From: a virus
Reading direction: 5' to 3' (one strand)
Virus record (IMG/VR): IMGVR_UViG_3300035689_000053
Location: 1 to 34,084 of that record
DNA length: 34,084 nucleotides
The position numbers and the translations under genes were made by a program. This document shows, in pieces, positions 1-28,570 of this stretch. The first letter of the stretch is position 1. Each line of letters starts with the position of its first letter. Below the pieces are notes generated by a model. That model had not been told where the DNA came from, searched no databases, and saw nothing but the letters and a program-made list of their open reading frames with translations.

Positions 1-20
1 CCTCGGTTCACGCCGTGAGG

Positions 21-75
21 CCAGTTCCTACGAAGCCAGTTCTACTGGATACCAGTTCTTAGAAACCAGTTCCTA
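21..75. repeat. Degenerate tandem repeat, four CCAGTTC units
   Basis: Four copies of CCAGTTCYTA-like units start at 21, 36, 52 and 66, a period of 14 to 16 bases. The units differ in their spacer sequence but keep CCAGTTC. No gene covers this stretch. Iteron-like repeats of this kind are seen at replication origins and operator arrays; the function here is inference only. Confidence 0.6.
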
Positions 76-130
76 GGGAAAAGGGTAAAGCCGAAGGGCA
101 AGGTGAAAGCGTATGGCGAAGGCGAAAGCC
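76..130. repeat. Purine-rich degenerate short repeat
   Basis: A run of GGYRAAG-type words (GGTAAAG, GGCAAGG, GGTGAAAG, GGCGAAGG, GCGAAAG) gives strong purine bias on the + strand. It directly follows the CCAGTTC repeat and precedes an AT-rich segment. No coding potential is evident and no function can be assigned. Confidence 0.4.
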
Positions 131-192
131 TAATTTTTATTAACCGCCTTGGTATGCCCAAGGCTACCACATAACTTTTTGAAAGTCAACAC

Positions 193-207
193 TCTGACAG
201 TGTCAGA
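193..207. promoter_or_regulatory. Palindromic 15-mer, site 1 (perfect)
   Basis: TCTGACAGTGTCAGA is a perfect 7+1+7 palindrome and the first of eight copies of this motif in the window. It lies in the non-coding left region, two bases before the first TGTTCC word of the iteron-like array. An odd-length palindrome of this size is typical of a dimeric helix-turn-helix operator; the binding protein is unknown. Confidence 0.75.
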
Positions 208-208
208 C

Positions 209-586
209 TGTTCCGTATCTGTTCCACACGTGTTCCAGAGTCGTGGAACACGCAAGCCTTTGATAAATAAAACAAAAACACGGTTTGTTCCAATGTTCCA
301 CGTTTTCCAAGAGGGGCTAAGGGGACAAAGTTAGATACCGTTCATGGCACGCCGCAAATCTGTAAATAAAATTTTTTCGGCAATCCGTATCCCCTATTCC
401 CAAAACTGTGGAACATGGAACACTTACACTATTTTCTGTTCCATAATATAACTTCTTCTTCTTTCTTCTTCTTAATAATCAATAACTTACTACACTCGCT
501 TACACTACGGAACGTCGCACCCGTGAAGAATAGTACAACTTTTTTTTGTGGAACACGCTGGAACATCGGAACACTTTTGCGGAACA
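209..586. repeat. Iteron-like TGTTCC/GGAACA array (origin or centromere candidate)
   Basis: GTTCC starts at 210, 221, 232, 287, 295 and 438, and its complement GGAAC at 245, 410, 417, 509, 550, 560, 568 and 581: fourteen copies in about 375 bases, where chance predicts less than one. Most copies extend to TGTTCCA or TGTTCCAC. The forward orientation dominates on the left and the reverse on the right. The first three copies are spaced exactly 11 bases apart, one helical turn. The array surrounds an AT-rich tract. The arrangement fits a replication origin, a partition site or a cooperative operator; which one cannot be told from sequence. Confidence 0.6.
443..490. other. AT-rich polypyrimidine tract, possible unwinding element
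   Basis: This stretch is made of ATAATATAA, then repeated CTT triplets (about 452-473), then TAATAATCAATAA. It lies in the middle of the GTTCC/GGAAC array and contains no plausible gene. An AT-rich segment inside iterons is the usual layout of a duplex-unwinding element, so it is marked as a candidate. Confidence 0.35.
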
Positions 587-774
587 TTACCCCCCAAGCC
601 ATCGCTAACGCAATCGGATTACCACGCCGACACAATTACCGGTGTGTTCAGGCACACACTTAATTCCAACATCACCTAAACAACGCACACACCACGCTGA
701 CACGTGCGGCCAGAGTGACCACTAAATTCCAAAATCTTTTCGCTCGGCAAGCCCATCGCCGTTGCCTCATCCAC
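587..774. other. Non-coding stretch with no recognised feature
   Basis: Between the last GGAAC word and the first promoter I find no gene with a ribosome binding site, no strong hairpin and no repeat. The short open frames crossing it have no protein-like composition. Confidence 0.4.
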
Positions 775-805
775 TTGATTAAGTTGTCAAGTTTTGTTAT
801 ACTAT
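775..805 (+). promoter_or_regulatory. Sigma70-type early promoter, copy 1
   Basis: A -35 box TTGATT (775-780) and a -10 box TATACT (798-803) are separated by 17 bases, and an extended -10 TGT (795-797) precedes the -10 box. Over 31 bases the region matches 1867-1897 at 26 positions. It faces the first early genes, and a palindromic operator (849-863) lies about 45 bases downstream. This is probably recognised by host RNA polymerase early in infection. Confidence 0.75.
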
Positions 806-848
806 GTATAGAATGGAGAGAGCGAGACGGGCCGGAAATACTCATGAC

Positions 849-863
849 TCTGACACTGTCAGA
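849..863. promoter_or_regulatory. Palindromic 15-mer, site 2 (perfect)
   Basis: TCTGACACTGTCAGA lies in the leader downstream of promoter copy 1 and upstream of the first gene. It is preceded at 837-848 by AATACTCATGAC, an extension shared with the sites at 1973 and 4621. Its position could block initiation or early elongation from the promoter. Confidence 0.75.
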
Positions 864-914
864 ACATGAACCTGCCAAGCACCTACAACGTAGAAAACGG
901 AGGCAACACAGCAT

Positions 915-1136
915 ATGTCGCAGAATGGTATGGAAAAGTTATGCACGAAGTGTTGGGCGAAGCGCGTACCGCATGCCCGTAGCATGGCGGGTTTCGATAC
1001 CTGCCTACCCTGCGGGGAGCGCGAAGCACGTAAGCGCAAGCACACCATCGTCCCACTGCACAAGTCGAACTACATCGTTCCTGCTAACGCTGACGAGGTC
1101 AGAGGCATCAACAACAAGGGAGGGTTTTACAGGTGA
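915..1136 (+). CDS. Small zinc-ribbon-like protein
   Basis: This 73-residue protein has two cysteine pairs: CTKC near residue 10 and CLPC near residue 30, followed by a basic stretch and a C-terminal segment ending in GINNKGG. The cysteine spacing suggests a small zinc ribbon, so nucleic-acid or protein binding is plausible, but no catalytic residues are visible. I recognise the layout as a recurrent small phage protein of unknown function. The start is chosen because GGAGG (899-903) lies 11 bases upstream of the ATG. It is the first gene after promoter copy 1 and its stop overlaps the GTG start of the next gene. Confidence 0.75.
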   Translation: MSQNGMEKLCTKCWAKRVPHARSMAGFDTCLPCGEREARKRKHTIVPLHKSNYIVPANADEVRGINNKGGFYR

Positions 1137-1366
1137 GCGTTAAGTTTTATGTCGGAGAGATGCGGTCGGATTACGCCACCATCCACGGGCTGACTGAGGA
1201 GGTGCATTTTCTGACCAGACTCGACTACGTGGTGACTGCACACGGCGATAGGGAAGTTGCCAACATCGACACTATGCTACGGGCTTCAGACAAGGAGTTC
1301 ATTCGTTCAGACAGTGACGTTCAGACGTATGTGGCCTTGGACATTTTCAACGAGGTGCAGCGATGA
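1133..1366 (+). CDS. Small hypothetical early protein
   Basis: A 77-residue protein with no recognised domain. The GTG start overlaps the previous stop (GTGA) and is preceded by GGGAGGG (1118-1124) at a spacing of 8, which decides the start. It is mixed alpha/beta in composition with no cysteine pairs, signal peptide or membrane segment. Its end overlaps the next gene by ATGA, so the three small genes 915-1848 form a translationally coupled early operon. The function is unknown. Confidence 0.65.
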   Translation: MSVKFYVGEMRSDYATIHGLTEEVHFLTRLDYVVTAHGDREVANIDTMLRASDKEFIRSDSDVQTYVALDIFNEVQR

Positions 1367-1848
1367 CTCTGCAAAACGACATGGACGATTGGTGGGCCGA
1401 CCACAAGCGTCAAGAAGACGAGATTCAACAGTTAGAACTTGAACTAGCCAAGATACGGCAGGAGGTTGAGCGTATGAAAGTCTATCCGCAAGACATCTTT
1501 ACGGATGCCAATGGCACGAGCCTACAGGGCTACGTCCGTGCCGACTACAGTGAGTTGGTCGCTGCGTTCGGTGAGCCACTGGAAGGGGATGGCTGCAAGA
1601 CACAGGCTGAGTGGGTGTTGGTTTTTGAAGTTCCACAGGACGATGGCTATGCCGACCGCGTGGTCGCGACCATCTACGACTGGAAAAAGTACGACCAGAC
1701 GGTCGAGGACATCACTCAGTGGAACATTGGGGGACATGACCCACGTGCGCCAGAGTTGGTCATCGACTATCTGAACTATCAGCGCGACATGGAGCGTGGC
1801 GAGATATCGCCCAACGGGCGACCGTACCTAAAAGCGAATTATGCCTAA
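1363..1848 (+). CDS. Hypothetical protein with N-terminal coiled coil and conserved C-terminal domain
   Basis: This 161-residue protein starts at an ATG overlapping the previous stop. Residues 10-38 are charged with heptad-like leucines and isoleucines and probably form a coiled coil. The remainder contains the block GYVRADYSELVAAFG followed by WVLVFEV and ATIYDWKKYD, a pattern I have seen in other phage proteins of unknown function. No catalytic motif is clear. It is the last gene before a 150-base gap holding the second promoter, so it closes the first early transcription unit. Confidence 0.7.
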   Translation: MTLQNDMDDWWADHKRQEDEIQQLELELAKIRQEVERMKVYPQDIFTDANGTSLQGYVRADYSELVAAFGEPLEGDGCKTQAEWVLVFEVPQDDGYADRVVATIYDWKKYDQTVEDITQWNIGGHDPRAPELVIDYLNYQRDMERGEISPNGRPYLKANYA

Positions 1849-1866
1849 CGCCGATAGTGTTTGTTC

Positions 1867-1897
1867 TGGATTTAATTGTTAAGTTGTGTTATACTAT
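1867..1897 (+). promoter_or_regulatory. Sigma70-type early promoter, copy 2
   Basis: The -10 box TATACT (1890-1895) carries an extended TGT (1887-1889). The -35 box TGGATT (1867-1872) lies 17 bases upstream. The sequence matches promoter copy 1 at 26 of 31 positions, including TTGTYAAGTTKTG just upstream of the -10 box. It drives the DUF3150/AAA/VWA module. The weaker -35 box suggests lower strength than copy 1, but this is inference. Confidence 0.7.
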
Positions 1898-1899
1898 TC

Positions 1900-1943
1900 T
1901 TGTCATGTGGTAGTGACAAACAGGGCGGGACTGCACACCGCCC
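1900..1943 (+). other. Two adjacent hairpins in the module leader
   Basis: TTGTCA (1900-1905) pairs with TGACAA (1914-1919), and GGGCGG (1923-1928) pairs with CCGCCC (1938-1943). Both lie between promoter copy 2 and the DUF3150-like gene. No T-run follows, so this is not an intrinsic terminator. It may be a structured 5' leader that affects mRNA stability or translation. Confidence 0.4.
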
Positions 1944-1972
1944 GACTCTAGTGAACTGTAAATACTTACGAC

Positions 1973-1987
1973 TCTGACAGAGTCAGG
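1973..1987. promoter_or_regulatory. Palindromic 15-mer, site 3 (degenerate, overlaps the ribosome binding site)
   Basis: TCTGACAGAGTCAGG differs from the consensus at positions 9 and 15. Its last bases run into the AGGAGG (1985-1990) ribosome binding site of the gene at 1999. The extension AATACTTACGAC (1961-1972) is shared with sites 2 and 6. The two mismatches create or keep the ribosome binding site, so this copy may be a compromise between operator and translation signal. Confidence 0.65.
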
Positions 1988-1998
1988 AGGCTGAGCAA

Positions 1999-2910
1999 AT
2001 GGAATCTCAAACGAACTCATTACTGAAAAAGCCCGACCACGTAGTTTCGCTTGCTACATCGGGCATCTTGGTCAACGTCGAGGTCAGCGTGTGGACTGGC
2101 ACGAAGCAGGATCGCGAGATCAGCGACGAAGTCACCACGGCGAAGAAGGCCGACAGGGACGCAGGGCGTTTCGTTAAGAAACTTCTTGCAGGTGTCCACG
2201 AGCATCGTGCCGTGCTGAACGACCGGCAGACTTGGTACAACTTTGTCGAGCGTGAAACTTACCCATGGTCGGGTCGGTGGCGGTTCCTGCCAACGCCGCG
2301 CATCGTCGGGTTCATGAAGCAGGTCGAGGAGCGTCAAGCCAAGACTGAAGAACTCAAGGACAAGTTTCGGCAGGTCTACACCACTGCCGTGGCTAACGAA
2401 GCGTTTGTTCAAGGTGACATGTTCAAGGCTACGGACTACCCACCTGTGGACGAGGTGATGTCGTGCTTCAAGGTGAAAGTTTTTACGGCAGAAGTCCCAG
2501 TCGGTGACTTCCGTTGTCAGATAAGCAACGACCTAGCCAATGACTTGGCGCAACACTACGAGCGGCAAGCCAAGGACTTGGTGCAAGACATCTACCAGAA
2601 GCAGGTTGAGCAGATGGTTGATGTAATGAAGTCGCTCTCACACTGCTGCGACACCGAGACCGTGATCGAAGACGGTCAGATGAAAGTCAAGAAGCGCAAG
2701 TTGTACGACACCACGTTGCAGCGGGCACAGGAGATGTGCGAGACCTTCAAAGACTTCAACGTCACACAGGACGGTCGCTTGGAGGAGGCACGTGCCGAAC
2801 TCGAACGAGTGGTGTCTGGGTTGGACATTGAAACTCTACGCAACAATGACACCAAGCGTGTCGTCGTCAAAGAGAGCGTCGATGACATCCTGAAGAAGTT
2901 TGGTTTCTGA
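1999..2910 (+). CDS. DUF3150-like protein of an AAA/VWA module
   Basis: This 303-residue soluble protein is rich in charged helices, with long predicted coils around residues 100-130 and 180-300. Its composition and position directly before a MoxR-type AAA ATPase and a metallopeptidase/VWA protein match DUF3150 proteins, which occur in this three-gene arrangement in phages and plasmids. No catalytic motif is visible; an adaptor or substrate-binding role is an inference. The ATG is supported by AGGAGG at 1985-1990. A degenerate palindromic site overlaps the start region and a perfect one covers the stop codon, so both ends may be regulated. The family name is from memory and would need a profile search. 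Confidence 0.7.
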   Translation: MESQTNSLLKKPDHVVSLATSGILVNVEVSVWTGTKQDREISDEVTTAKKADRDAGRFVKKLLAGVHEHRAVLNDRQTWYNFVERETYPWSGRWRFLPTPRIVGFMKQVEERQAKTEELKDKFRQVYTTAVANEAFVQGDMFKATDYPPVDEVMSCFKVKVFTAEVPVGDFRCQISNDLANDLAQHYERQAKDLVQDIYQKQVEQMVDVMKSLSHCCDTETVIEDGQMKVKKRKLYDTTLQRAQEMCETFKDFNVTQDGRLEEARAELERVVSGLDIETLRNNDTKRVVVKESVDDILKKFGF

Positions 2911-2920
2911 CATTGTCAGA
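2906..2920. promoter_or_regulatory. Palindromic 15-mer, site 4 (perfect)
   Basis: TCTGACATTGTCAGA contains the stop codon TGA (2908-2910) of the upstream gene and ends 33 bases before the ATPase start codon. It occupies the only gap between the two genes. The intergenic position suggests control of the ATPase gene apart from the gene before it. Confidence 0.75.
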
Positions 2921-2953
2921 TTTGTACGTAATCAATCGGAGGCTATATCAGTC

Positions 2954-4042
2954 ATGAAACGAGAAACTCTTAACTTTAACAACGCCATCAGTATCCCCGA
3001 GGCGTTCAAGTTGTTGTTGGTGAACGGCAAGAGCAAGACTTATTACTTCCAAGGTGAGCCTGGCATTGGCAAGTCAACGCTCTACAAAATGTTGGTTGAA
3101 GCATTGGGTGATGCTTACGATCACGTGTACCTTGATTGGTCGTGCATCGACTACGGTGAGTTGGGCCTACGTGCGCCGAACCGTGACACTGGCGAATTGG
3201 AAGTATACATATCGTCGCTGCTCAAGCCGAAGTCTAACAAGCCCAAGTTGATCATGATCGACGAGTACGACAAGGGCGACAAGATGCTACAGAAACTTGG
3301 CGCACGGCTCACGCTAGACAAGGTGTGGATGGACTATGTGCTGCATCCAGACTCTATCGTGTTCGCGACAGGTAATCTTGCAACAGATGGTGTGGGCAAC
3401 GCGCTGTTGGCGCACGCATCGAACCGTGTCACAACGCTGAACATTCGCAAGCCGACCGTGGACGAGTGGTTGGTGTGGGCGACTAACGCAGGGTTGTCTA
3501 TGGAGTTGAGAGCGTTCGTCAAGATGACGCCGTCAGTCATGGCGAGTTACTTGGATGGAATTACTCCACAGGACAACGAGCATGTGTTTATCCCCGTGCA
3601 TCGGACTAAACAGTTTTGCTCCCCGCGATCACTCGCTAACTGCGACCCCGACATCGTGAACCGTGGCAGGTTAGGTCATTCGCTGACGATGGCGGCACTG
3701 GCAGGTTCGATTGGCGTACCGAGTGCGAAACAGTTGGCTGCGGTGTTGGCGCTGAAGGACGAGGTGGTGTTGGCAGAGGATGTTATCAAAGACCCTGACA
3801 ATGTCAGAGTGCCAGAGAAACAGGCCGCGCTCTTTATGATGATGTTCAACGCCATCGACGTTATCCAGACGCAGGACGATTTGAGCAAGTTCATGAAGTT
3901 CATGCGACGAACGAAGTCTGAGGAGTTGCAGTCAGTCTTCTTCACGATGGCGATGGGTAGCAAACGACTCTCGCCTATTGCATCCAAGAACGCTGAGATT
4001 TCTAAGTGGCTGCAAGACGGCAACTACCAACTGCTGACTTGA
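2954..4042 (+). CDS. MoxR/CbbQ-type AAA+ ATPase
   Basis: A 362-residue AAA+ ATPase. Walker A is GEPGIGKST (residues 34-42) and Walker B is LIMIDEYD (D103, E104); the segment VFATGN after Walker B fits sensor 1. MoxR-type ATPases work with VWA-domain partners to remodel or load cofactors into target proteins, and the next gene encodes such a partner. The start at 2954 is preferred over an upstream in-frame GTG because GGAGG (2938-2942) precedes it and the conserved region begins soon after. A palindromic site (3794-3808) lies inside the coding sequence. The target of the ATPase is unknown. Confidence 0.88.
   Translation: MKRETLNFNNAISIPEAFKLLLVNGKSKTYYFQGEPGIGKSTLYKMLVEALGDAYDHVYLDWSCIDYGELGLRAPNRDTGELEVYISSLLKPKSNKPKLIMIDEYDKGDKMLQKLGARLTLDKVWMDYVLHPDSIVFATGNLATDGVGNALLAHASNRVTTLNIRKPTVDEWLVWATNAGLSMELRAFVKMTPSVMASYLDGITPQDNEHVFIPVHRTKQFCSPRSLANCDPDIVNRGRLGHSLTMAALAGSIGVPSAKQLAAVLALKDEVVLAEDVIKDPDNVRVPEKQAALFMMMFNAIDVIQTQDDLSKFMKFMRRTKSEELQSVFFTMAMGSKRLSPIASKNAEISKWLQDGNYQLLT
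3794..3808. promoter_or_regulatory. Palindromic 15-mer, site 5 (intragenic)
   Basis: CCTGACAATGTCAGA has one outer mismatch to the consensus and keeps the core TGACANTGTCA. It lies within the AAA ATPase coding region, where it encodes Asp-Asn-Val. An intragenic position is unusual for an operator and resembles elongation-blocking 'stoperators'. Confidence 0.6.
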
Positions 4043-4068
4043 TTTGAACAACTAACAATGGAGGCTGT

Positions 4069-5346
4069 ATGAACGCAGTAGCAGAGACAATCCCCGTGAG
4101 TACGCACGAGGCGACAATGAAGTTGAAGAAGGTGCATATCAGACTGATGAAGCACCCTGAGACTTGTTTGTTTTCGGGCATCCTGATGATGGGTGAATCA
4201 AGTGTCGATGTCGGAATTCCGACAGCGTACACAGATGGTCTAAACAAACGCTATGGGAAAGACTTTATCGAAAAGTTGAGTCTTGCCGAGTTGGGTGGGT
4301 TGGTGCTGCACGAGAACGGGCACGTGATGCTCAAGCATATTCCACGCCACAGGGATTTGATCAAGCAGAACCCGCGCCTTGCCAACGTGGCGATGGACTT
4401 TGTGATCAACGCCATCATCATGGAGATCAGTCAGAAAGCACCCGAGTTGGTGAAGTTACCGAAGGGTGGCTTATACGATCCCAAGTATCACGGTTGGTCT
4501 GTGCGTCAAGTATGGGATGACTTGGTTAAGCGCATGGAGCAGGAGCAGAAACAGCAAGGCAACGGAGGGGGTTCCGGCCAGCAAGGTCAGAGTGGCGGCA
4601 ACGCTAATAATACTTCCGACTCTGACAGTGTCAGCGACATGCAGCCGCTCGACGAGCATGACATCGAATCGACTGAGACGATGGATGGCGAAGCCGCTGA
4701 TCAGTTATCCAAAGAGATCGACGAGGCTATCAGTCAAGGTTCTATTATCGCAGGTCGATTTGGTGTGAAGACTCCCCGTGCCATCACTGAGGTGTTGGCT
4801 CCCAAGGTGGACTGGCGTGAAGAACTACGCGAGTTTGTAAGCGCAGCCACGGCAGGACGAGACGAGTTGACTTGGGCGAAACTTAATCGACGCCGCCTCA
4901 CTGATGATTTGTTCCTGCCACACGTGGAGTCCGAGACGATTTACGAAGGCGTCATCGCTAACGATACATCGGGCAGCATCGGAGACGCGCTGCTGAACAT
5001 GGTCGGTGGTGAGATCGCGTCCATCTGTGAAACGTGCAGACCAGAGCGCATGCGCGTGTTGTGGTGGGACACGATGGTGCATGGTGAGCAGGTGTTTGAA
5101 GGTAACTACGATGGCATCGCTACGCTGCTGAAGCCGTTGGGCGGTGGCGGTACTAGGGTGTCTTGCGTCAGTGACTACATCACGAAGAACAACGTCGATC
5201 CACAGTTCCTGATCGTGTTCACGGATGGTTATGTAGAGAACAACATCGAATGGGAGTTGAACTGCCCAGTGTTGTGGCTGCTGCCGCCGAGTCACAACAG
5301 GGACTTTGAGCCGCCCGTTGGTCGCAAGATTGTTATTGAAAACTAA
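4069..5346 (+). CDS. Zincin metallopeptidase-VWA fusion (DUF2201-like)
   Basis: A 425-residue protein with two recognisable parts. The N-terminal half has the zinc-peptidase motif HENGH (residues 81-85, HExxH). The C-terminal half is VWA-like with the metal-site motif DTSGS (residues 299-303) and a later FTDGY. Between them lies a Gly/Gln/Asn/Ser/Asp-rich linker (about 160-205). This architecture matches the DUF2201 'VWA-like metallopeptidase' family, usually paired with a MoxR ATPase as here. The ATG follows GGAGG (4060-4064). The linker is partly encoded by a palindromic site (4621-4635) plus its upstream extension. Proteolysis or chelatase-like remodelling of a host target is possible but unproven. 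Confidence 0.85.
   Translation: MNAVAETIPVSTHEATMKLKKVHIRLMKHPETCLFSGILMMGESSVDVGIPTAYTDGLNKRYGKDFIEKLSLAELGGLVLHENGHVMLKHIPRHRDLIKQNPRLANVAMDFVINAIIMEISQKAPELVKLPKGGLYDPKYHGWSVRQVWDDLVKRMEQEQKQQGNGGGSGQQGQSGGNANNTSDSDSVSDMQPLDEHDIESTETMDGEAADQLSKEIDEAISQGSIIAGRFGVKTPRAITEVLAPKVDWREELREFVSAATAGRDELTWAKLNRRRLTDDLFLPHVESETIYEGVIANDTSGSIGDALLNMVGGEIASICETCRPERMRVLWWDTMVHGEQVFEGNYDGIATLLKPLGGGGTRVSCVSDYITKNNVDPQFLIVFTDGYVENNIEWELNCPVLWLLPPSHNRDFEPPVGRKIVIEN
4621..4635. promoter_or_regulatory. Palindromic 15-mer, site 6 (intragenic, with extension)
   Basis: TCTGACAGTGTCAGC has one outer mismatch. It is preceded at 4609-4620 by AATACTTCCGAC, nearly identical to the sequence before sites 2 and 3. 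It lies in frame inside the low-complexity linker of the VWA protein and encodes part of a Ser/Asp run, where sequence constraint is low. Confidence 0.65.
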
Positions 5347-5358
5347 TTGGAGGTTGTC

Positions 5359-6468
5359 ATGGCTAAGCGAAATTCAATCAAGGTGAACATCGACGAGATG
5401 TTCCTACCGAACACGAAGATGGATGACGATAAACTGCGGAAAGAAGCAGTGCGTTCTCCGACATGGCCTATTGCTGTCGCTATCTACGGCGCGACCGAGG
5501 GGCGCGTCAGGGTCGCAGACTTTGTTGCTCCACTCACTCACAGTTGGGGGAGCGAACTTGATATGCAGCACTACATGACGCTGACTACCGTGCATGGTTT
5601 CAGTGTTGCAAACATCAAGTACGACCCGCGACCGAAAGACGAGCGTAGTGACGACGAGACTGCGTTCACCATTCAAGCCGTTAATAACATCTTTCGTGAT
5701 ACCAACAGGTACGGATTTGGTGGTGAGAAGTTATGCACCAACACGCAGCGTTATGCCGTGCAAAAAATGGCGAAGGGTCGCCATGATGTTCATCATTCAA
5801 TATGCAGTGCAGTGTTGACTGTTGAGCAAGCACTGAGCGATCACGTGCGTAGCATTCTTGATAACGCTATGGATAATACATACGGCAGTAGTCTAAGCGG
5901 TCGCCCGACTGTCACCATCCCACGTGAGTATTCTCAGTCACTGCTGAAGGTGTTCATGGGTGACGCCGACAAGAGCAGCATCCCGTTCAACTTGATGGAC
6001 AAGATCAGAACGATATACACCACGATGAAGCAGTCTGATGAGAAGTTTGATGCATCACTCGCTACGGTGCGCTCCATGCTTGAGGGCGAGAAGATCGTTT
6101 TCTTTCCGCAGATACGTGGCGGCGTGATCGTGGGCAAGACCAATACTGTGCCGATTTCCGCTGCACTTGACATGTACCGTGACGGGTCGAATCTGCCCTA
6201 CGCAACCAATTTCGCGTACATGCCAGAGGTAGGGTTCTCTATGCCGTTGCGGTGGTACAAGAGCCTGCAAGATTTGCCGAGCGACTTGCGGAAAGAATTA
6301 GAAATACAACTCGTCATGCTCAAGGCACACATCGGCTGCGACAACCTTGTGCCGACCGACGATGACATGAGAGATAAAAAGTTCTGGCCTGAGATCGGTG
6401 CAGCGTGTCGCAAGGAGTCCCAAGCGACATCGCCTATGTTTATCTTGAACAGCATGAACGTAGCGTGA
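5359..6468 (+). CDS. Hypothetical protein downstream of the AAA/VWA module
   Basis: A 369-residue protein I do not recognise. It is soluble, mixed alpha/beta, with no signal peptide, membrane segment or clear catalytic motif. A moderately basic central region (about 130-160) is followed by a helical segment (about 190-245). The ATG at 5359 is preferred because GGAGG (5349-5353) lies 5 bases upstream; an in-frame TTG at 5347 would lie inside that signal. It follows the VWA gene by 12 bases and is probably co-expressed, so it could be a fourth member or substrate of the module. Confidence 0.7.
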   Translation: MAKRNSIKVNIDEMFLPNTKMDDDKLRKEAVRSPTWPIAVAIYGATEGRVRVADFVAPLTHSWGSELDMQHYMTLTTVHGFSVANIKYDPRPKDERSDDETAFTIQAVNNIFRDTNRYGFGGEKLCTNTQRYAVQKMAKGRHDVHHSICSAVLTVEQALSDHVRSILDNAMDNTYGSSLSGRPTVTIPREYSQSLLKVFMGDADKSSIPFNLMDKIRTIYTTMKQSDEKFDASLATVRSMLEGEKIVFFPQIRGGVIVGKTNTVPISAALDMYRDGSNLPYATNFAYMPEVGFSMPLRWYKSLQDLPSDLRKELEIQLVMLKAHIGCDNLVPTDDDMRDKKFWPEIGAACRKESQATSPMFILNSMNVA

Positions 6469-6469
6469 T

Positions 6470-6850
6470 ATGTCCGTATATAAAACTTATACGCCACTGA
6501 AGATAGGCGAAGGATATCGCACTTACGCGAACATCGAAGACGGTCTGTATAAAATTTTCTTAGATGAAAACGTAAAGCGCGAGTTTACCGATGCCACTTT
6601 ACCCAATGAGATCAAGGTCATAGTCGGTCTAATCAACGCCTATGACTGGGAGAAGATTCACCAGAGTAGTAGGCACACAAGTATCACAGATCAGCCTAGC
6701 GAAAATTACGCGATGGTGTGGATGTTCGACGATGCCGCTTACCCACCCGTGCTTATCGACATAGGTTGGCGGTACAAGCAGCACTACTGTCTCGTATTAC
6801 CCACCCCCCTCTTTCAAGAATTACGTGGAGGTATGACAATGTCAGAGTAG
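6470..6850 (+). CDS. Hypothetical protein
   Basis: A 126-residue protein without a recognised domain. It starts one base after the previous stop. The C-terminal third (WMFDDAAYPPVLIDIGWRY) looks like beta strands of a compact domain. The last codons overlap palindromic site 7. It lies between the AAA/VWA module and the VRR-NUC gene and has tight coupling to both. The function is unknown. Confidence 0.6.
   Translation: MSVYKTYTPLKIGEGYRTYANIEDGLYKIFLDENVKREFTDATLPNEIKVIVGLINAYDWEKIHQSSRHTSITDQPSENYAMVWMFDDAAYPPVLIDIGWRYKQHYCLVLPTPLFQELRGGMTMSE
6832..6846. promoter_or_regulatory. Palindromic 15-mer, site 7
   Basis: TATGACAATGTCAGA has one mismatch at position 2 and keeps the core. It covers the end of the preceding gene and lies 30 bases upstream of the VRR-NUC start codon. 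It marks the downstream boundary of the motif-rich early region. Confidence 0.65.
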
Positions 6851-6876
6851 TAACTATTCCTATTGAAGGAGCCACT

Positions 6877-7155
6877 GTGACGCCTGAAGCCAAAGTCAAA
6901 GCGAAGGTAAAGAAAATTCTTATGGAGATGGAAGCGTATTACGCGATGCCGATGGGAACTGGTTTCTTTTCTTCTGGTGTCCCAGATTTTTTAGTTTGTA
7001 AACAAGGCTTGTTTTATGCTATAGAGTGTAAAGCAAATGGCAACAAACCGACTGCGCTGCAACTAAAGCATCTTGATGATGTGCGTAAAGCAGGTGGAGT
7101 TGCCTTAGTTATAGACGAGTCAAACGTAAATCAGTTGAAGGAGTTAATGAAATGA
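6877..7155 (+). CDS. VRR-NUC domain nuclease
   Basis: A 92-residue single-domain protein of the VRR-NUC branch of the PD-(D/E)XK nucleases. Visible catalytic residues are D37 in GVPDFLV and E50/K52 in AIECKA, with Q62 in the following TALQLKHL helix. Stand-alone phage VRR-NUC proteins of this length are thought to be structure-specific nucleases acting in replication or recombination. The GTG at 6877 is chosen over an upstream frame opening because AAGGAG (6866-6871) precedes it and the family begins here. It overlaps the next gene by four bases. Confidence 0.85.
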   Translation: MTPEAKVKAKVKKILMEMEAYYAMPMGTGFFSSGVPDFLVCKQGLFYAIECKANGNKPTALQLKHLDDVRKAGGVALVIDESNVNQLKELMK

Positions 7156-7538
7156 GTAGGAAGAAAGTTAATAAGTCTGAGGTAATCCGCAAGTATTTTA
7201 CTGCGGGTTTGTCGGTCAAAGAAATCAAAGAAAAAACGGGTTACAAAGATTCGCTAGTGCGACTTGTGATTCGTAACTACAAGAACAAGGCCAAACCGTC
7301 AAGAATTCTTGCAGCAATAACTGAGATCAAGAACGACATAGTAAACAAACCGCTTCACTACACGACTGGTGGTGTCGAGACGCTCGACTTCATCGAAGCC
7401 AAAGATTTGAACTACCGCTTAGGCAACGTAGTCAAGTACGTGGTACGTGCAGGTAAGAAGCACACCGATCCTGTTGAAGACCTAAAGAAAGCGCGGTTCT
7501 ATCTTGACCGTGAAATCACTGTCCGTGAGAGGGCTTAA
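7152..7538 (+). CDS. DUF3310 protein with N-terminal HTH-like segment
   Basis: A 128-residue protein. Residues about 63-124 form a DUF3310 domain with NKPLHY, DFIEA, NVVKYVVRAGKK and DLKKARFYLDREI blocks, often annotated as a phage nucleotide-kinase-like protein without firm biochemical proof. Residues about 8-45 resemble a helix-turn-helix (AGLSVKEIKEKTGYKDSLVR), so this looks like a fusion of a DNA-binding segment to DUF3310. The start overlaps the VRR-NUC stop by ATGA. Confidence 0.8.
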   Translation: MSRKKVNKSEVIRKYFTAGLSVKEIKEKTGYKDSLVRLVIRNYKNKAKPSRILAAITEIKNDIVNKPLHYTTGGVETLDFIEAKDLNYRLGNVVKYVVRAGKKHTDPVEDLKKARFYLDREITVRERA

Positions 7539-7540
7539 TC

Positions 7541-8359
7541 ATGTCTAAAAGAGTTAAGTATACTTATCAAGTCGAGACCATCGACGCAAAGAAAGCGCGT
7601 CAGTATCTGTCCAATGTTCACGTTCGTCAGAAGGGGCGTGACTTCAAGGGCGTGATCCAGACGTATGCCGATGCGATGAAGAATGGCACATGGGATACCG
7701 ATGTAGCCCAAACCATTTCATTCGATAACACAGGCGCGTTGATCGACGGGTGGCATAGACTTCACGCTGTTGAACTGGCGAATGTCTCGCTGCCTTTTCT
7801 CGTCGCCCGTAACGTCGAGCCGCATGCGTTCGCACACTACGATGCAGGTAAAGCGCGATCCCTAGCGTTTCGTCGTGGCGTAGAAAACAATCGTCAGGCC
7901 ATCATTGGTGCGCTCATCAGAACTGCGTTGTATCCGTATGGCACTAGCCGCCACACGGTCGAGCAGAGCGAAGTCACTGAGAACTTTGCGCGTGAGTACC
8001 TCGACTACTTTGACGAGCATGCCACTAGCACCAACAAGGCGCGGGTCAGTACGGCGTCCTGCCGTGCGGGAGTTATCTTGTCTTTGATGGCTCATCCAGA
8101 TCGTAAGTCCACGATCATCTACGCATACAACGACATGATCCACGGAAATTTTGAAAAAGCGCCACGTTCCGTGTCTAACTTGTATAGACGTTGCTTAGAA
8201 GACAAACGACTGACCAACATGGATTACGTCGCGTTGGCGTGGCATGCGTTCAATCCGCACAAGTTCGGGAACCTCAAACTCGTTGTACGTGACTTGAGCA
8301 GCGACATCCACGACATCCAGAACAAGGTTCTCAAGGACTTGAAGGGAGCCATCCAGTGA
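7541..8359 (+). CDS. ParB/Srx-fold-like phage protein
   Basis: A 272-residue protein whose N-terminal 110 residues resemble the ParB/sulfiredoxin-like domain of phage proteins: an ISFDNTGALIDGWHRL block holds D69-G-W-H-R73, matching the DGxHR signature. The C-terminal 150 residues are helical and of unknown role. Family members include NTP-dependent ParB-like proteins and nucleases; which activity applies is unclear. The start is two bases after the previous stop, with GAGAGGG upstream. A link to the repeat array at 209-586 as a partition-type protein is possible but speculative. Confidence 0.7.
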   Translation: MSKRVKYTYQVETIDAKKARQYLSNVHVRQKGRDFKGVIQTYADAMKNGTWDTDVAQTISFDNTGALIDGWHRLHAVELANVSLPFLVARNVEPHAFAHYDAGKARSLAFRRGVENNRQAIIGALIRTALYPYGTSRHTVEQSEVTENFAREYLDYFDEHATSTNKARVSTASCRAGVILSLMAHPDRKSTIIYAYNDMIHGNFEKAPRSVSNLYRRCLEDKRLTNMDYVALAWHAFNPHKFGNLKLVVRDLSSDIHDIQNKVLKDLKGAIQ

Positions 8360-18342: not shown

Positions 18343-19197
18343 ATGAGTAACGACATCATAGTCAGTTTGAAGAACCAGATCGCCACGGTGCAGACTGGAC
18401 TCGACGATGACACTCGTGCCGTAGCCGGTGGCGGCACTGGCGGGGTCAAGCGCATCAGCATCAAGGGCGGCGTATTCCGCAAGATGGCAGGTGGCAAGGA
18501 AGTCGCGTCTATCGAAGACCGGCACATGAACGTCATCTTTGTGAAGATGGCTCACACCGCTAGCCGCACCTACTACTCTGGTGCATACAAGGAAGGCGAG
18601 AAGATCGCACCTATCTGCTGGTCAACCGACTCCAAGACGCCTGACGTTGAGGTAAAGAATCCTCAAGCCAAGTCTTGCGATTCTTGCCAGTGGTCGGTCA
18701 AGGGATCGGGTCAGGGTGGCAGCGGCGCGGCATGCCGTTTGTCTTGGCGAACTGCGGTTGTGCTGCCGAATAACCCCGGCGGTGATGTCATGCAGTTGGT
18801 GCTTCCTGCAACGTCTTGCTTTGGCAAGGAAGAAGGCGGCAAGTATCCGTTCCGTCCCTACATTCAGATGTTGGCTAGCAACGACATTTCGGCAGGGCGT
18901 GTTGTAACTAAGATGCAGTTCGACACTAAGTCGCCTGTACCGAAGGTGCTGTTCTCACCCGTTGCAGCGGTGGACGAATCGGATATTGAAGTTATTACCC
19001 GTCAGCGCAACTCGGCAGCGGCAGAAGCAGCCGTTAAGTTGACTGTGTATCAAGCAGACGAAGGTGAGACTTCTGGCCCCATCGTCACTGGCCCTGCTGC
19101 TTTGCAGGAACCGAAGTTGCGTGAGCCAACTAAGAAAGCCGAGGCTGCTCCGAACGGGGACGTTGCCGACGTTGTCAAGAAGTGGGCGAAGAAGTAA
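18343..19197 (+). CDS. Possible ssDNA-binding or replication accessory protein
   Basis: A 284-residue protein I do not firmly recognise. It has a Gly-rich segment (25-35), a CDSC pair near residue 110 followed by two further cysteines (ACRLSW, TSCFGK), which could bind zinc or an Fe-S cluster, and a flexible Ala/Pro/Glu-rich C-terminus ending in a lysine tail. The position between helicase and primase genes and the OB-like beta-rich centre make a single-strand binding role plausible, but this is inference from context. Confidence 0.6.
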   Translation: MSNDIIVSLKNQIATVQTGLDDDTRAVAGGGTGGVKRISIKGGVFRKMAGGKEVASIEDRHMNVIFVKMAHTASRTYYSGAYKEGEKIAPICWSTDSKTPDVEVKNPQAKSCDSCQWSVKGSGQGGSGAACRLSWRTAVVLPNNPGGDVMQLVLPATSCFGKEEGGKYPFRPYIQMLASNDISAGRVVTKMQFDTKSPVPKVLFSPVAAVDESDIEVITRQRNSAAAEAAVKLTVYQADEGETSGPIVTGPAALQEPKLREPTKKAEAAPNGDVADVVKKWAKK

Positions 19198-19206
19198 GGA
19201 GTTACC

Positions 19207-19518
19207 ATGCCTCGCTCATACGGCGACAAGTTCTTAGTCGCGCTAAAAGACGGAGACCCCAACCGCTTGGGGGTGAAACTTGGCAGAGTATGTGTCGAGG
19301 CTAACCTCCCTGCGGCTTACGTGGCTAAAGCGTTGGATACGTCACGAACTACGGTCTATGCGTGGTTCAGAGGACAGGGTATAAGGGAAGAGAAGCGCAC
19401 TCGTATCGAAGCCTTCATCTACCTCATTGAGGAAGACATGAAGCAGGGTGTACTTCCCGCTCGTAACTCTCTCGACGCGAAGATATACATCTCTCAAATG
19501 CTGGGAGGGAATCTTTGA
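19207..19518 (+). CDS. HTH DNA-binding protein
   Basis: A 103-residue protein. Residues about 38-62 (NLPAAYVAKALDTSRTTVYA, then WFRGQ) form a Cro/CI-like helix-turn-helix; the C-terminal helix may mediate dimerisation. It ends directly before a strong terminator. It is one of two proteins with a recognisable HTH here (the other is the DUF3310 fusion), so it is a candidate binder of the repeated palindrome, though nothing in the sequence proves the link. GGAG precedes the ATG. Confidence 0.75.
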   Translation: MPRSYGDKFLVALKDGDPNRLGVKLGRVCVEANLPAAYVAKALDTSRTTVYAWFRGQGIREEKRTRIEAFIYLIEEDMKQGVLPARNSLDAKIYISQMLGGNL

Positions 19519-19542
19519 TTTAGGTTTGTTTGACACCTCTCT

Positions 19543-19571
19543 GGCGGGGGACTGCTGACCCCGCCTTTTTT
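19543..19571 (+). terminator. Strong intrinsic terminator before the primase-helicase gene
   Basis: GGCGGGG (19543-19549) pairs perfectly with CCCCGCC (19559-19565) across a 9-base loop and is followed by six Ts. It ends 14 bases before the ATG of the primase-helicase gene, with no promoter visible between. Confidence 0.85.
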
Positions 19572-19585
19572 ATCTGTGGCAGTGT

Positions 19586-22414: not shown

Positions 22415-22592
22415 GTGGGTCTTTCCGTTTGACGGTATGGAAGTCGGGGATTCTTTCTTCGTGCCTACCGTCAAACCGGCAGAGATGCTGTATAAGTTAG
22501 ACACCTGCGCCAAGATCGCCAAGGTTAGGGTGAAGGCTTATGCCTCGTCCAAGGACGGACATCTTGGCGTCAGGGTCTGGCGTATTGGCTAG
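22386..22592 (+). CDS. Small conserved phage protein
   Basis: A 68-residue protein with a beta-rich core (MEVGDSFFVP, KVRVKAYASS, GVRVWRIG). The pattern 'M.VGDSFFV ... GVRVWR' recurs in phage small proteins of unknown function. It overlaps the primase-helicase end by 29 bases, and GGAGAAG lies upstream. Its stop codon shares CTAG with the stop of the convergent virion gene. Confidence 0.7.
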   Translation: MTGTRLQEPEWVFPFDGMEVGDSFFVPTVKPAEMLYKLDTCAKIAKVRVKAYASSKDGHLGVRVWRIG

Positions 22593-25500
22593 TTGCCAGC
22601 CAATTCTTCTACGCGGCTACGTACACCGTATGGTAGGTACAGACCATCTACTGACTGCAACTGCCGCGAACGCCTGCCGCTAAGTGACTTCATCAGCGTT
22701 TCCGGTGTGATGATAAGCCCTTGTCGCGGGTTCTTCTGGTTGAACTTCTTTATGTCAGCCAGAACTTCCTGCATGCCCTGACGATCCTTTTCCTGCCACG
22801 CAGCGTTGTACTGGTCGATCAAAGCCGCACGACGCTTCTTTAACTTGGAATCAAACTTGGCATCAACACCGGCACGTTCACGGGCCTCTGCAACTTCGGC
22901 AGGATTGAAGCCAACCGCTTGCATCATCAAGTTGTAGCCACCGATGTTCTCAACGACAGGCGTACCGTCTTTGTTTCTTACGCCTTCTTCTGCCATACGC
23001 AGAGTTTTGAAGCCGTTACGTATGAAGGACGGAGTGATAGCCTCAATAGACCGCATGTACTCGCCTTCACCAAACAGTTCTACGCCACGCTGTGCGCTAA
23101 GGAACGCGCCGTAGGCTGGCCCCATTGCCTGCTCTAGCGTGTACAAAAACGGCCCGACTTCAGCCATGCGCCTCGGGTCATCGCGCCAGATCATTCCGTT
23201 GAAGCCGGTACGGGATGCAATGTCCACGCCGATCATCTGGTTGAGCAGCCCCTTGCGACCCGTTTCACCGAACTTATCGTTTACGTAAGCATTGAAGTCG
23301 TACGGCTCGTCATCGTCGCCCATAAGCAGATTCGCCAAGAACTCTACTGCGCCATACATCGGCATGCCTTGCAGACCGGCAATGAGGAAAGACGAACCAA
23401 AAATACCTATCAACTGACTGCGTGCAACTTCCCGCGTCTGAGCGTCAGCATCGCCAAATGCTTGCTTGAACAATCTGCTGAGCAAGTAGATTTGCGCTTG
23501 AGCAAACCGCTTGAAGGTGAACATCACCTTACCAAACCCTTGCTGGAACAAGCGCGGCCCAGTCTCGGCAAGAGCAGAACCGTGTGCGTCACTGACTACT
23601 TTCAAGGCTTCTTCGATAGCCTTGTCTACGTTCTTAGTCCTCTCGTAAGCAAGATCAAATGCTGCAAGCAGAGTGACTTCGCGGTTGAAACGCTCGGAGT
23701 TTTGGAACAGCCAGCCAAGGCCATGAGTCACACGTGCCTTGATGCCGACGTAGTCTTTTACGCCAGCCTTTTGTGCTTCAGTGATTTCGTACCCGGTTGA
23801 ACGACGGATGACCGAACGAGCAACGGCTGTCTGGTATAACTTTTTGTACTTACGGTCTAAATTGGCGGTTTCGCCAAACGTGAAGTCGGACGGGAAAGCG
23901 CCTTTACCAGCGTTGTTCGTATCCCAACCACCGTTGAAATACGTGCTCATGGCCTTGTCCATGGCAGCGGTGGTCTTAGCCACGCCGTACTTACCCATCA
24001 GCAACGGAGCCACAACCATGGGCAACTGGGTCGTGTTGATAAGTGCCGAAGAAATGTTACCGGCGATAAACCATATGTAACTGAAGTAACTTGCCCCATC
24101 TACCAGCCAGTTCTTTTCTGGGTTACGGATGAAGTCAACTTGCTTCTTCAGGTTACTGTATACGGCACCAAGCGTTTTGTTAGTGACACGCTCACCACCC
24201 GCTTGCTTGTAGATTTCATTCATCGTCTCTTCAAGCGGAATGGCGTACTCAAGGTTCGTGAGTTGGTTCGCCATGCGGGTAGCCACGTTGGCGTAAGCCT
24301 GAAACACATCAGGCTCAAAGCCGAACACGCCGTAGCGATCAACGCCCGTGGCTATATCAAACGAGGCTTCACGAGGACGGTACATCTGCCGGATGGATTC
24401 TGCCGGGAGATAGTTCAAGAAAGTCTCATACACCGCATCAATCATGTCCTGCGGCGCACCTTTGTTCTCCATCTCACGGACTACATCGCCTAAGAACCCA
24501 GTCGGCGGGGGGCCGCTGCGACGAGCATCGCGCAGTCTTGAGAACGTAGAGAACTCTTTGCCGCCCTCTGCTCGGGCAGCGTCCTCACCACGCTGACGGT
24601 CAAGGTCACTCGCGTACGCCGCGACAATCGTCTCGCCGTTCTTGTCTGTGTAAGACAACCAATAATTGCCATCGCGCCAGAGCGGCAGGTACACCTGCAA
24701 ACGCTTCGCGTCATACTTGGCTTTGAGTTTGTCTACAACATCCTTACCAAGCCGCTGCTCCATCAACTTGAAGAGTTGTTGCGACTTGTTCTCGTAGTCT
24801 TCACGCAAATCTTTGTAGGCTTTACGGAGATCGGCAGGCAGACTGTTGTACTCTCTGACAATGTCATAAGAAACTTTATCGAAGGGCGTCATCTTGTCCT
24901 TCGGTTTCTTGAGGACTGCCTGCACCGAATCCTTGAGCGGGTCAACCTGATAGACCGTGGTCAGGTTCGCTACCTTGAAGAATCTTTCAAGCGTCTCAGG
25001 CTTGTCTTTGTAGTTGTTGGACAGTTCAAACCACTTGGTTACGTTGGTGCTAACTTCCTCACGCCGACGCATTTCGGTCGCGCCACGATTACCAAGTAGC
25101 GTGTCTAACTTAGCAACAGACGGAAGTTCCTTAGCCCACACCTCGGCAATCTGCGGTATTGACAGGAACGAGATGGCCCCGTCACGCAAATTGTCGTACA
25201 CGTTGCCCAGCGAACTGCGTACGCCGTCGCCAATCTTGTTGTCGTAACGAGGCGCGGTAGTGTTTACATCGAAGACGTTGCTAAGGCGTTCTTTAGCCTG
25301 CCTGCGCTGAAACATCGGTTCGCCAGACGGGCTAAGTCTAGCCTCGCGTTCACGAGTGGTAACCGTATCGTGCGCCTCAATAAGAATCTGACGAACATCG
25401 TTGTTGCTGTAGTTGATTTGTATGCCCATACCGCGAATGAACTTGCGGATCATGGCAGCAACACGATTGAACGCCGCACGTATACCTGCGTCTTTGATTA

Positions 25501-28500: not shown

Positions 28501-28570
28501 TACTAGCCCCCGCTGGCCCTTCGATGGAGTACGTTTTCCCATCGGGCATTGTGACTTTGTAGCGAGGCAT
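22589..28570 (-). CDS. Giant internal virion (ejection) polyvalent protein
   Basis: A 1993-residue protein. The N-terminus (about 1-35, starting MPRYKVTMPDGKTYSIEGP) is a domain common at the start of phage virion proteins. A hydrophobic Ala/Gly-rich part follows (50-150), then an acidic linker, two FtsK-gamma-like winged-helix domains (about 401-460 and 553-612), a zincin-like domain with HESLGH (954-959) and EE at 1013-1014, and a long helical C-terminal region with an LPD38-like segment (about 1600-1720). Such proteins are carried in the capsid and injected to build a channel or act on the host. Its stop overlaps the convergent gene. Confidence 0.85.
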   Translation of the reverse strand: MPRYKVTMPDGKTYSIEGPAGASKEQVIAAVQRRIGAAEEETTLGGEVKEAFKGVIPGAAGLLETAATGAAALLPERAEMAVRGKAAELAGAAREAFKAAPGYEESTGRKFGEALGSTAPFFALGPLGAAGRAGAVGLGVGAGAGEARQRAEMEGGEEDKGLATAAGAVIGASEAIPVFNFVKRLPRDAQLTILDRIKRGFQAAGEEGAQEAAAQVAQNIVAKGLYKPSQELIESAGEEGAYGAGVGAFIQVLTDMALGRRVRGVQPPPSAEERLTEEEPPPTAPPGTQASVKEEVARQTKEEEKVRAVIDEEKDAADEEARLEREAVQAYEREQEELTARRGYDEQTLREAAEAEALAPVEDEGVPYTPPEREEEVAPVEEEPTVEEPTVEAPTVEEPEYTMRDAALEVFKETGKTNVDTLRNRLAIPLQEAKELRQSLIDEGVLVRRGNTYILQEVETAPAAKAEEVKDADIRARDIEEVDVGAVGGSDVLPPSRPVSAGQVTAEPAVAPMERVGEPAAVALAGAEIVEPALEDIDVAQEELEAAQTPSRATSIRTAALDFVRATGKADPISLQQTLGIELSEARALREALVGSGAIVPVPGKKNLYTVFEELKTTPVTPAREGRIEGESITAARPEVLQGAPRPAVREVLPEVSEEKPGVTAVGKRTQVSPEFQSTLDDLRQLAAAPDMEGRQYGLDLVGGEARGVTRKKLSPAEVNNAKTLGLTKEATAYAANPAGVAERRTLIEATKAKHKGLVERAVALQKQESDNRKIGKEKILSDGFFRSLYGTLSDPQITMGQLVEAENRLKKSEAKYGEVVAPQVTAEQATFEEDTEFREAIKAQKARAEEREEAEKAAREERRRTRKRDIGLRFERGKGAGMDADRVYEIATKTAANWKNKPRIFVVQSIDELPETLRARTPDDVSGFYINGDVFLIADNATTEANVRATMFHESLGHFGLKNLFGRRLREVMLDIYRTNPAMRKAADGYFKRFPDAYKYMNDADRRSMAIEEVLAEASSKGVIKDAGIRAAFNRVAAMIRKFIRGMGIQINYSNNDVRQILIEAHDTVTTREREARLSPSGEPMFQRRQAKERLSNVFDVNTTAPRYDNKIGDGVRSSLGNVYDNLRDGAISFLSIPQIAEVWAKELPSVAKLDTLLGNRGATEMRRREEVSTNVTKWFELSNNYKDKPETLERFFKVANLTTVYQVDPLKDSVQAVLKKPKDKMTPFDKVSYDIVREYNSLPADLRKAYKDLREDYENKSQQLFKLMEQRLGKDVVDKLKAKYDAKRLQVYLPLWRDGNYWLSYTDKNGETIVAAYASDLDRQRGEDAARAEGGKEFSTFSRLRDARRSGPPPTGFLGDVVREMENKGAPQDMIDAVYETFLNYLPAESIRQMYRPREASFDIATGVDRYGVFGFEPDVFQAYANVATRMANQLTNLEYAIPLEETMNEIYKQAGGERVTNKTLGAVYSNLKKQVDFIRNPEKNWLVDGASYFSYIWFIAGNISSALINTTQLPMVVAPLLMGKYGVAKTTAAMDKAMSTYFNGGWDTNNAGKGAFPSDFTFGETANLDRKYKKLYQTAVARSVIRRSTGYEITEAQKAGVKDYVGIKARVTHGLGWLFQNSERFNREVTLLAAFDLAYERTKNVDKAIEEALKVVSDAHGSALAETGPRLFQQGFGKVMFTFKRFAQAQIYLLSRLFKQAFGDADAQTREVARSQLIGIFGSSFLIAGLQGMPMYGAVEFLANLLMGDDDEPYDFNAYVNDKFGETGRKGLLNQMIGVDIASRTGFNGMIWRDDPRRMAEVGPFLYTLEQAMGPAYGAFLSAQRGVELFGEGEYMRSIEAITPSFIRNGFKTLRMAEEGVRNKDGTPVVENIGGYNLMMQAVGFNPAEVAEARERAGVDAKFDSKLKKRRAALIDQYNAAWQEKDRQGMQEVLADIKKFNQKNPRQGLIITPETLMKSLSGRRSRQLQSVDGLYLPYGVRSRVEELAGN
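24854..24868. promoter_or_regulatory. Palindromic 15-mer, site 8 (inside the giant virion gene)
   Basis: TCTGACAATGTCATA keeps the core TGACANTGTCA with one outer mismatch. It is the only copy outside the first 7 kb and lies in the opposite-strand late gene. It may be an outlying site or a chance match. Confidence 0.35.

Follow-up and report, generated by a model that had tools for sequence, protein, structure and literature searches.

The virus record IMGVR_UViG_3300035689_000053, of which the whole stretch of 34,084 bases was analysed (the window), carries eight copies of the palindromic 15-mer TCTGACANTGTCAGA. These palindromes are a real, operator-like set, which belongs to a phage group whose members have differing palindromes in a similar layout. 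On balance they are probably operators for a dimeric regulator that shuts early promoters and blocks elongation downstream, stoperator-like in action but symmetric in sequence.

Rescanning the window confirmed all eight positions and mismatch counts reported in a first-pass annotation: perfect copies start at 193, 849 and 2906, copies with one mismatch at 3794, 4621, 6832 and 24854, and one with two mismatches at 1973, which alone, as had been reported, deviates from the core TGACANTGTCA kept by the other seven. At up to 0, 1, 2 and 3 mismatches the window contains 3, 7, 8 and 9 sites, as against means of 0, 0.01, 0.153 and 1.9 in 1000 dinucleotide-preserving shuffles. Chance origin is ruled out by these shuffles, and the equal density in shuffled DNA which the annotation had named as evidence against its claim was not seen, the shuffles giving almost no sites. 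The result depends on the stringency used: the third mismatch adds one weak match at 1089, at a level where shuffles reach up to 8 sites, and the bare 11-mer core at up to two mismatches occurs 28 times against a shuffle mean of 18.65, with 4 of 100 shuffles reaching 28. Seven of the eight sites lie within the first 6,846 of the 34,084 bases (binomial P 9e-5). The early regulon proposed by the annotation stands in so far as the operator-like sites are dispersed, have the early region as their centre and exceed chance; the copy at 24854 probably falls outside it. This copy is present in G003 and, as a two-mismatch version in a like context, in G008, is missing from G005, and is probably an incidental coincidence of coding sequence. 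Records G024-G026 have a single one-mismatch copy each, counted over the whole record irrespective of position.

Relatives were gathered by a search with the metallopeptidase-like protein of the window, which gave 40 loci. Those in which this anchor protein is 100 to 69% identical (L005-L012; 69-74% at the lower end) have 6-11 sites each at up to two mismatches; the other 32 gave one two-mismatch match, in L040 only, and whole-record scans found one match at up to two mismatches in each of G012 and G019. Judged by longer relatives, the window appears to be a fragment beginning inside the site cluster. Near-identical contigs hold further copies upstream of its start, the sites recur at corresponding places, and outside this fragment the set is larger than eight copies. 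The loss of sites in close relatives, which had been named as a second ground for rejection, was not observed, the sites being kept there. In G005 (59,966 bases) all 11 sites lie within positions 18735-27842 of the reoriented record, i.e. 9.1 kb. Sites are also gained or lost between near-identical DNA, as with a G003 site at 769 that is absent in the window.

A scan of viral contigs for the exact motif gave at least 118 stretches, of which 95 loci were read; at least 17 loci had two or more copies at up to one mismatch. Among the matches listed, nine were of the window lineage and eight were more divergent (L188, L235, L281; L194, L282; L256; L261; L211). The first seven of these eight have 2-8 exact copies, and their terminases are 60-79% identical to that of G005. 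The last, L211 (1-5522), encodes a T7-type RNA polymerase and a Toprim protein and has three exact copies and one near copy of TCTGACANTGTCAGA, one of them directly ahead of the ribosome-binding site of the polymerase gene; it gave no match to any of the genes tested. An INPHARED DNA search with window positions 1-8000 found nothing, tblastn searches with the 303-amino-acid (aa) early protein and with a helix-turn-helix (HTH) protein of the window found no match, and a scan of genome contigs found only two loci, in contigs of metagenome-assembled genomes, both without palindromes.

Many more distant relatives without TCTGACANTGTCAGA have a dispersed palindrome of their own in a like layout. 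These were discovered by scanning for over-represented palindromes and were refined with a symmetric matrix whose threshold was set on one shuffled genome. They include TTCCAC-N6-GTGGAA (8-18 sites in five records), TTCAGG-N4-CCTGAA (17 and 17 sites), TTTCAC..GTGAAA (19 and 9 sites), TTCCGG-N4 (17 sites), TGTGAGA-N-TCTCACA (12 sites, one weak), CGAATCA-N2-TGATTCG (5 sites), TTCTGGGA-N3-TCCCAGAA (4 sites) and TTTGTGAC..GTCACAAA (3 good of 5 sites). Since the best palindrome score in first-order Markov shuffles (n=48) reached 5.5, the few-copy sets are weaker, and that of G021 (3 exact copies), taken over the whole record, does not exceed this level. The lineages differ in operator sequence. The record G018 is genome-wide nearest to G009/G016/G017, yet it has the TTCCAC operator in common with G012. 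No published description of these palindromes turned up in open-licence literature, as judged by titles and the beginnings of abstracts.

One of these relatives is an isolate, Rhizobium phage RHph_TM3_14A (MN988472; locus L132), which has a gene order like that of the window. Its palindrome, GTTACC-N5/6-GGTAAC, was found 59 times at up to one mismatch per arm, as against 2-4 times in five shuffles. After one doubtful site (12903) had been dropped, 18 of 58 site centres were intergenic, where 5.7 were expected (P 0.0002); six sites lie inside one 6.9-kb gene. The palindrome is kept in two metagenomic relatives, and no exact copy was found in Rhizobium etli plasmid p42f (642,517 bases), the one plasmid searched. 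The half-sites are separated by 5 (17 sites) or 6 (42 sites) bases, which seems unusual for a rigid dimer operator.

The position of the sites relative to the first early gene was determined in two gene families. In the window lineage this gene (family A1, 220-232 aa) sits outside the window. In the A1 contigs a site was located 101-110 bp before the matched start in 13 of 13 cases, and in five records inspected by eye this site is centred near -31 to -33 of a predicted TGTGGTATAAT promoter. The second family, A2, was found at 51 loci, near-duplicates included; eight which were too short downstream of the gene were left out and 43 were analysed. The operator consensus derived for these 43 is typically TA-N3-TTTCA-N8-TGAAA-N3-TA, and a site is present 60-260 bp upstream of the first gene in 40 of them, the others being L181 and L184, whose sequence starts within that gene or shortly ahead of it, and L185, which has none. 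A simple promoter score places the centres of 26 of the 40 sites at -45.5 to -47.5 relative to the best-scoring promoter; for the outliers near -84 the wrong promoter was probably chosen. The TTCCAC operator was found in at least three separate A2 clades, several of the placements being on long branches. G009, G011, G012 and G016 carry two tandem copies of the first early gene; in the copies inspected each has its own palindrome and promoter-like sequence, and the tree places the two G012 copies in clades far apart. Rows of terminator-like GGGGC-N4-GCCCC inverted repeats were seen in several A2 lineages (L019 3270-4435, L028 2640-3144, L156, L166), mostly upstream of the first early gene.

The two half-sites of the window lineage are almost equally informative, and each is flanked by a faint outer TA. 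Summed over ten per-record lines, from which G015 and the window were left out to limit double counting, the deviations in the two half-sites were independent (29 double deviations against 35.6 expected), and single transitions in the ten records were divided into 22 wobble-compatible and 22 mismatching changes. These two results argue for double-stranded dimer operators and not for RNA hairpins.

The following mechanism is proposed. The copies would be double-stranded DNA operators for a symmetric, presumably dimeric, DNA-binding regulator of early transcription. One operator, seen in relatives and lying beyond this fragment, overlaps the -35 region of the predicted first early promoter; the others, which have a mean spacing of 0.6-1 kb, are found a short way past predicted promoters, next to Shine-Dalgarno sequences and within genes. 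The regulator would shut early promoters by occlusion and block RNA polymerase at the downstream sites as a roadblock, so that early transcription would fall once it had accumulated. Sites at -35, past promoters, before ribosome-binding sites and within genes are those which an elongation-blocking repressor would use.

Dispersed operators of several kinds are available for comparison. The repressor of phage phiC31, which is temperate, binds conserved inverted repeats (CIRs), symmetric sites scattered through the early region, and the set described here shares that symmetry and that scattered early placement. The first-pass annotation had compared the set with the stoperators of mycobacteriophage L5, a comparison in keeping with the probable action of the set, and the symmetry by which it distinguished the motif is real. 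Cluster A mycobacteriophages (L5, Bxb1) have 20-30 dispersed stoperators per genome, some in promoters and most not, and relatives in the L5 clade carry diverged stoperator sets (PMC6550527). With operators and stoperators combined, the L5 clade serves as a working model for the mechanism proposed here. The likeness consists in many copies of one site, some in inferred promoters and most outside them. Cluster A stoperators are 13-14 bp long without a dyad, are bound by a monomer, lie mostly in one orientation and occur in temperate phages with a known repressor, whereas the site described here is a dyad with about equally conserved halves, and an integrase was matched in one distant record only. 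Since the symmetry differs and both lifestyle and binder are unsettled, membership in the L5 stoperator system is not claimed. The Nostoc cyanophages A-1 and N-1 have 43 and 21 dispersed motifs, typically between open reading frames (ORFs), for which stoperators were suggested by the authors as one possibility (PMC4916379); these motifs are reported as asymmetric, unlike the site described here.

The binding protein was sought among three candidates. The annotation had proposed the 103-aa HTH protein at 19207-19518, which was rejected on comparison of recognition helices: it does not co-vary with the palindrome, the helix staying the same across lineages in which different palindromes, or none, were found. 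Its helix SRTTVYAWFRGQGIREEKR is identical in G014 (L104) and L105 and little changed in G031 (L107). Despite this near-identity G014 and G031 carry TTCTGGGA-N3-TCCCAGAA (3 and 4 exact copies), and neither that palindrome nor TCTGACANTGTCAGA was found in the L105 record, a 33-kb fragment. Almost the same helix is present in G034, G038 and G039 (53, 41 and 61 kb), in which there was no match to either pattern. The HTH-like N-terminus of the DUF3310 protein (7152-7538) is not favoured; it differs between the window and G007, which share the palindrome. The product of the first gene, as an autoregulated binder, is attractive by position, and its sequence gives no support.

First-gene types A1, A2, L188, TM3 and L034 have no detectable relation to one another; hhalign placed the first-gene product of G014 with A2 (94%) and found the L188 type and L261 weakly alike (44%). 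A tblastn search with A1 gave no match in the eight divergent motif-bearing loci, and the first-gene proteins of L188, L282, L256 and L261 showed no relation to A1. Because these loci share TCTGACANTGTCAGA but not A1, one operator goes with different first genes, which weakens the first-gene hypothesis. Pfam and PHROG gave no convincing match for first-gene proteins. The AlphaFold model of A2 is helical, with a predicted local distance difference test (pLDDT) value of 83.5; Foldseek with this model against the PDB and viral libraries returned nothing at E <= 0.001, and the best VIA-align Z of 6.1 over 48 residues was uninformative. The A1 model was poor (pLDDT 48.4). The remaining options are a conserved binder inherited from an ancestor, the swapping of a regulator gene or a protein of the host.

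Several observations weigh against operators of an early repressor. No binder was found and the HTH protein is argued against, and phages of the A1 and L188 types share one operator though their first genes are not detectably related. In L256 and L282 the first site, and in L261 the first exact site, is, unlike in the window lineage, in a leader-like position 34-41 bp ahead of the start codon, and the placement at -45 to -47 in A2 loci would equally suit an activator. No palindrome was found in KPP25 and Rollin (50,000 bases of each scanned), nor in L117 or L118, and none was clear in whole-record scans of G010, G013 and G019 or in L015, L017, L020 and L027. The halves are not perfectly equivalent, with 86 left and 61 right deviations (P 0.047) and an outer TA that is stronger upstream in A2 lineages.

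The spacing of the sites is more even than random in six of eight records, which roadblocks do not require, and is the result least expected from ordinary operators. In RHph_TM3_14A the coefficient of variation of the spacing over 26-52 kb is 0.34, and 0 of 5000 uniform draws were as even. The corresponding P values are 0.001 for G017, 0.002 for G015, 0.010 for G012, 0.020 for G011 and 0.046 for G007, and G005 (P 0.132) and G020 (P 0.135) are not significantly even; for G012, G011 and G017 the calculation took in main-cluster sites only (13, 14 and 13 sites, respectively, out of 17 in each).

Signs of lysogeny, which is the usual reason for phages to have stoperators, are also few. Phage_integrase was matched in one of 18 records (G019, distant) and in none of seven more, RHph_TM3_14A included; resolvase and ParB_N (PF02195) were each matched in 0 of the 18, the window and many of the records being fragments. 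The 60-kb records suggest virulent phages. The record of RHph_TM3_14A does annotate a 'putative integrase' and att sites; this protein aligns with the primase/helicase of the window (24% over 811 columns, E 1e-40) and matches DUF927.

It is possible, and we put it forward tentatively, that the palindromes form a phage-wide DNA-marking system in apparently virulent phages, in which a fast-diverging, phage-specific protein binds evenly spaced palindromes and coats or folds either the early region or the entire genome, with global silencing of transcription or organisation of the DNA as the outcome. At about one site per 0.6-1 kb and up to 59 per genome, such a system would have no link to lysogeny, and its operator specificity would turn over between relatives with the layout unchanged, as in heterotypic immunity.

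It is rather unlikely that the sites bind an architectural or segregation protein (ParB-, MatP-, Noc- or SlmA-like) which organises, anchors or protects the DNA, with effects on transcription being secondary. The even spacing in the isolate, G017, G015, G012, G011 and G007 and the six sites within a single gene of the isolate would be accounted for. The core TGACANTGTCA fits the core of the matS site of MatP, GTGACRNYGTCAC, as quoted in PMC6907758, the shared inner core being TGACRNYGTCA, and the site variants TGACGGTGTCA and TGACACCGTCA in relatives fit the R/Y of matS. However, the 13-bp GTGACRNYGTCAC is not matched in full, the outer pair being C..G here and G..C in matS, and the palindromes of other lineages are mostly unlike matS. 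Moreover, the sites gather in early regions, beside promoters and gene boundaries. No MatP (PF06303) was found in the 18 phage records, a host MatP being possible, and the ParB gene expected with the ParABS partition sites of phage-plasmids was likewise lacking there.

A host-encoded binder, with activator sites at early promoters or the exploitation or titration of a host regulator, is similarly doubtful. The class of operator does not simply track phage relatedness (the divergent L-loci, L211, G018/G012), and the placement at -45 to -47 is recurrent. Against this, the motif may simply be ancestral and lost in other lineages, in-gene sites every 0.6-1 kb do not suit activators, and the lack of an exact copy of the RHph_TM3_14A palindrome in p42f, a single plasmid, is weak counter-evidence.

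An RNA element, i.e. an mRNA hairpin of 6 bp with a 3-base loop which is protein-bound or processed and acts at ribosome-binding sites, is very improbable: several copies do abut Shine-Dalgarno sequences and the first exact site appears to be in the leader in L256, L261 and L282, but it was rejected on the half-site counts, in which compensatory and wobble changes were not in excess, and furthermore the first site is upstream of the -10 of the predicted promoter in A1 and most A2 loci and spacer length varies among lineages and within the isolate. The single-stranded hairpins that serve as promoters for the virion RNA polymerase of phage N4 have conserved pairing; such promoters, or replication iterons, are most improbable here. 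In their favour, TCTGAC-ANT-GTCAGA can be written as a stem of 6 bp closed by a 3-base loop, and the metallopeptidase-like protein has 25-30% identical phage relatives, some annotated as N4 gp25-like. Against them, pairing is not selected, the sites extend over 7-9 kb both within genes and between them, the centres in other lineages measure 2-6 bases, and a separate TGTTCC/GGAACA cluster looks more like an origin. A search for RNA_pol (PF00940) gave no match in any record, the positive controls included.

The sites and neighbouring features of the window are listed in Table 1. The promoter next to the site at 849 reads TATAAT in G005-G007 in place of TATACT, and a scan of positions 1-8000 for promoters and terminators was not above shuffles (promoters: 7 found, 7.0 expected). 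On comparison with G007, the site at 6832 keeps 12 of 15 bases, where its 30-base flanks keep only 2/30 and 1/30. The identity of the in-gene sites at 3794 and 4621 to G007 is unexceptional (22-27% of windows are as similar), so that it is the recurrence of the motif at the same column, and not identity, which speaks for conservation there.

Table 1. Palindromic sites and neighbouring features in the window
Feature	Position	Strand	Remarks
TGTTCC/GGAACA repeat cluster	209..590		between sites 193 and 849; kept in G005, G007
Site TCTGACAGTGTCAGA (perfect)	193..207		non-coding, edge of TGTTCC/GGAACA-rich stretch; same context in G001-G004
Sigma70-like promoter	775..803	+	TTGATT, 17, TATACT, TG before -10; 9/12 consensus matches
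Site TCTGACACTGTCAGA (perfect)	849..863		centre at about +46 (predicted start site) of promoter-like TTGATT-17-TATACT
Site TCTGACAGAGTCAGG (two mismatches)	1973..1987		directly abuts Shine-Dalgarno of ORF 1999-2910; identical 15 letters in G001-G006
303-aa conserved early protein	1999..2910	+	weak PrkA C-terminal match below cut-off; in 20/20 gene-called records
Site TCTGACATTGTCAGA (perfect)	2906..2920		covers stop codon of 1999-2910, ahead of AAA-ATPase gene
AAA ATPase	2954..4042	+	PHROG 1297; Pfam AAA
Site CCTGACAATGTCAGA	3794..3808		within AAA-ATPase gene; G005-G008 read CCTGACGGTGTCAGA
Metallopeptidase/VWA-like protein	4069..5346	+	DUF2201_N, DUF2201; anchor for finding relatives
Site TCTGACAGTGTCAGC	4621..4635		within VWA/metallopeptidase-like gene; against G007, site 13/15 and upstream flank 10/30 identical
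Site TATGACAATGTCAGA	6832..6846		3' end of ORF 6470-6850, small gene
103-aa HTH protein	19207..19518	+	binder proposed in the first-pass annotation
Isolated copy TCTGACAATGTCATA	24854..24868		within reverse-strand gene 22589-28570

The TGTTCC/GGAACA cluster, which has 6/10 copies of TGTTCC and 7/19 of GGAACA in 500-base stretches starting at 209 and 245, is a possible replication origin. Stretches rich in TTCCA/ATTCC were seen at a like place in G009, G011, G017 and G018. A small protein with two CxxC motifs is encoded at 915-1136; by eye it resembles a TraR/DksA zinc finger, its Pfam hits are below cut-off, and it was found in 12 of 20 gene-called records. The reverse-strand gene at 22589-28570 encodes a product of 1993 aa, the C-terminal part of which matches the DarB-like antirestriction family PHROG 10089. 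Long degenerate repeats, with spacings such as 12, 33 and 99 bases, lie within reverse-strand genes at 30492-31215 and 32920-33573.

Dispersed operators are known mainly from temperate phages, in which they serve immunity. Here, related phages, including an isolate on Rhizobium, show little evidence of lysogeny and carry lineage-specific palindromes in numbers that range from a handful to 59 copies. Three questions become testable in this way: whether early genes are switched off by elongation roadblocks, which protein reads the sites, and how a regulator and dozens of its sites change specificity together.

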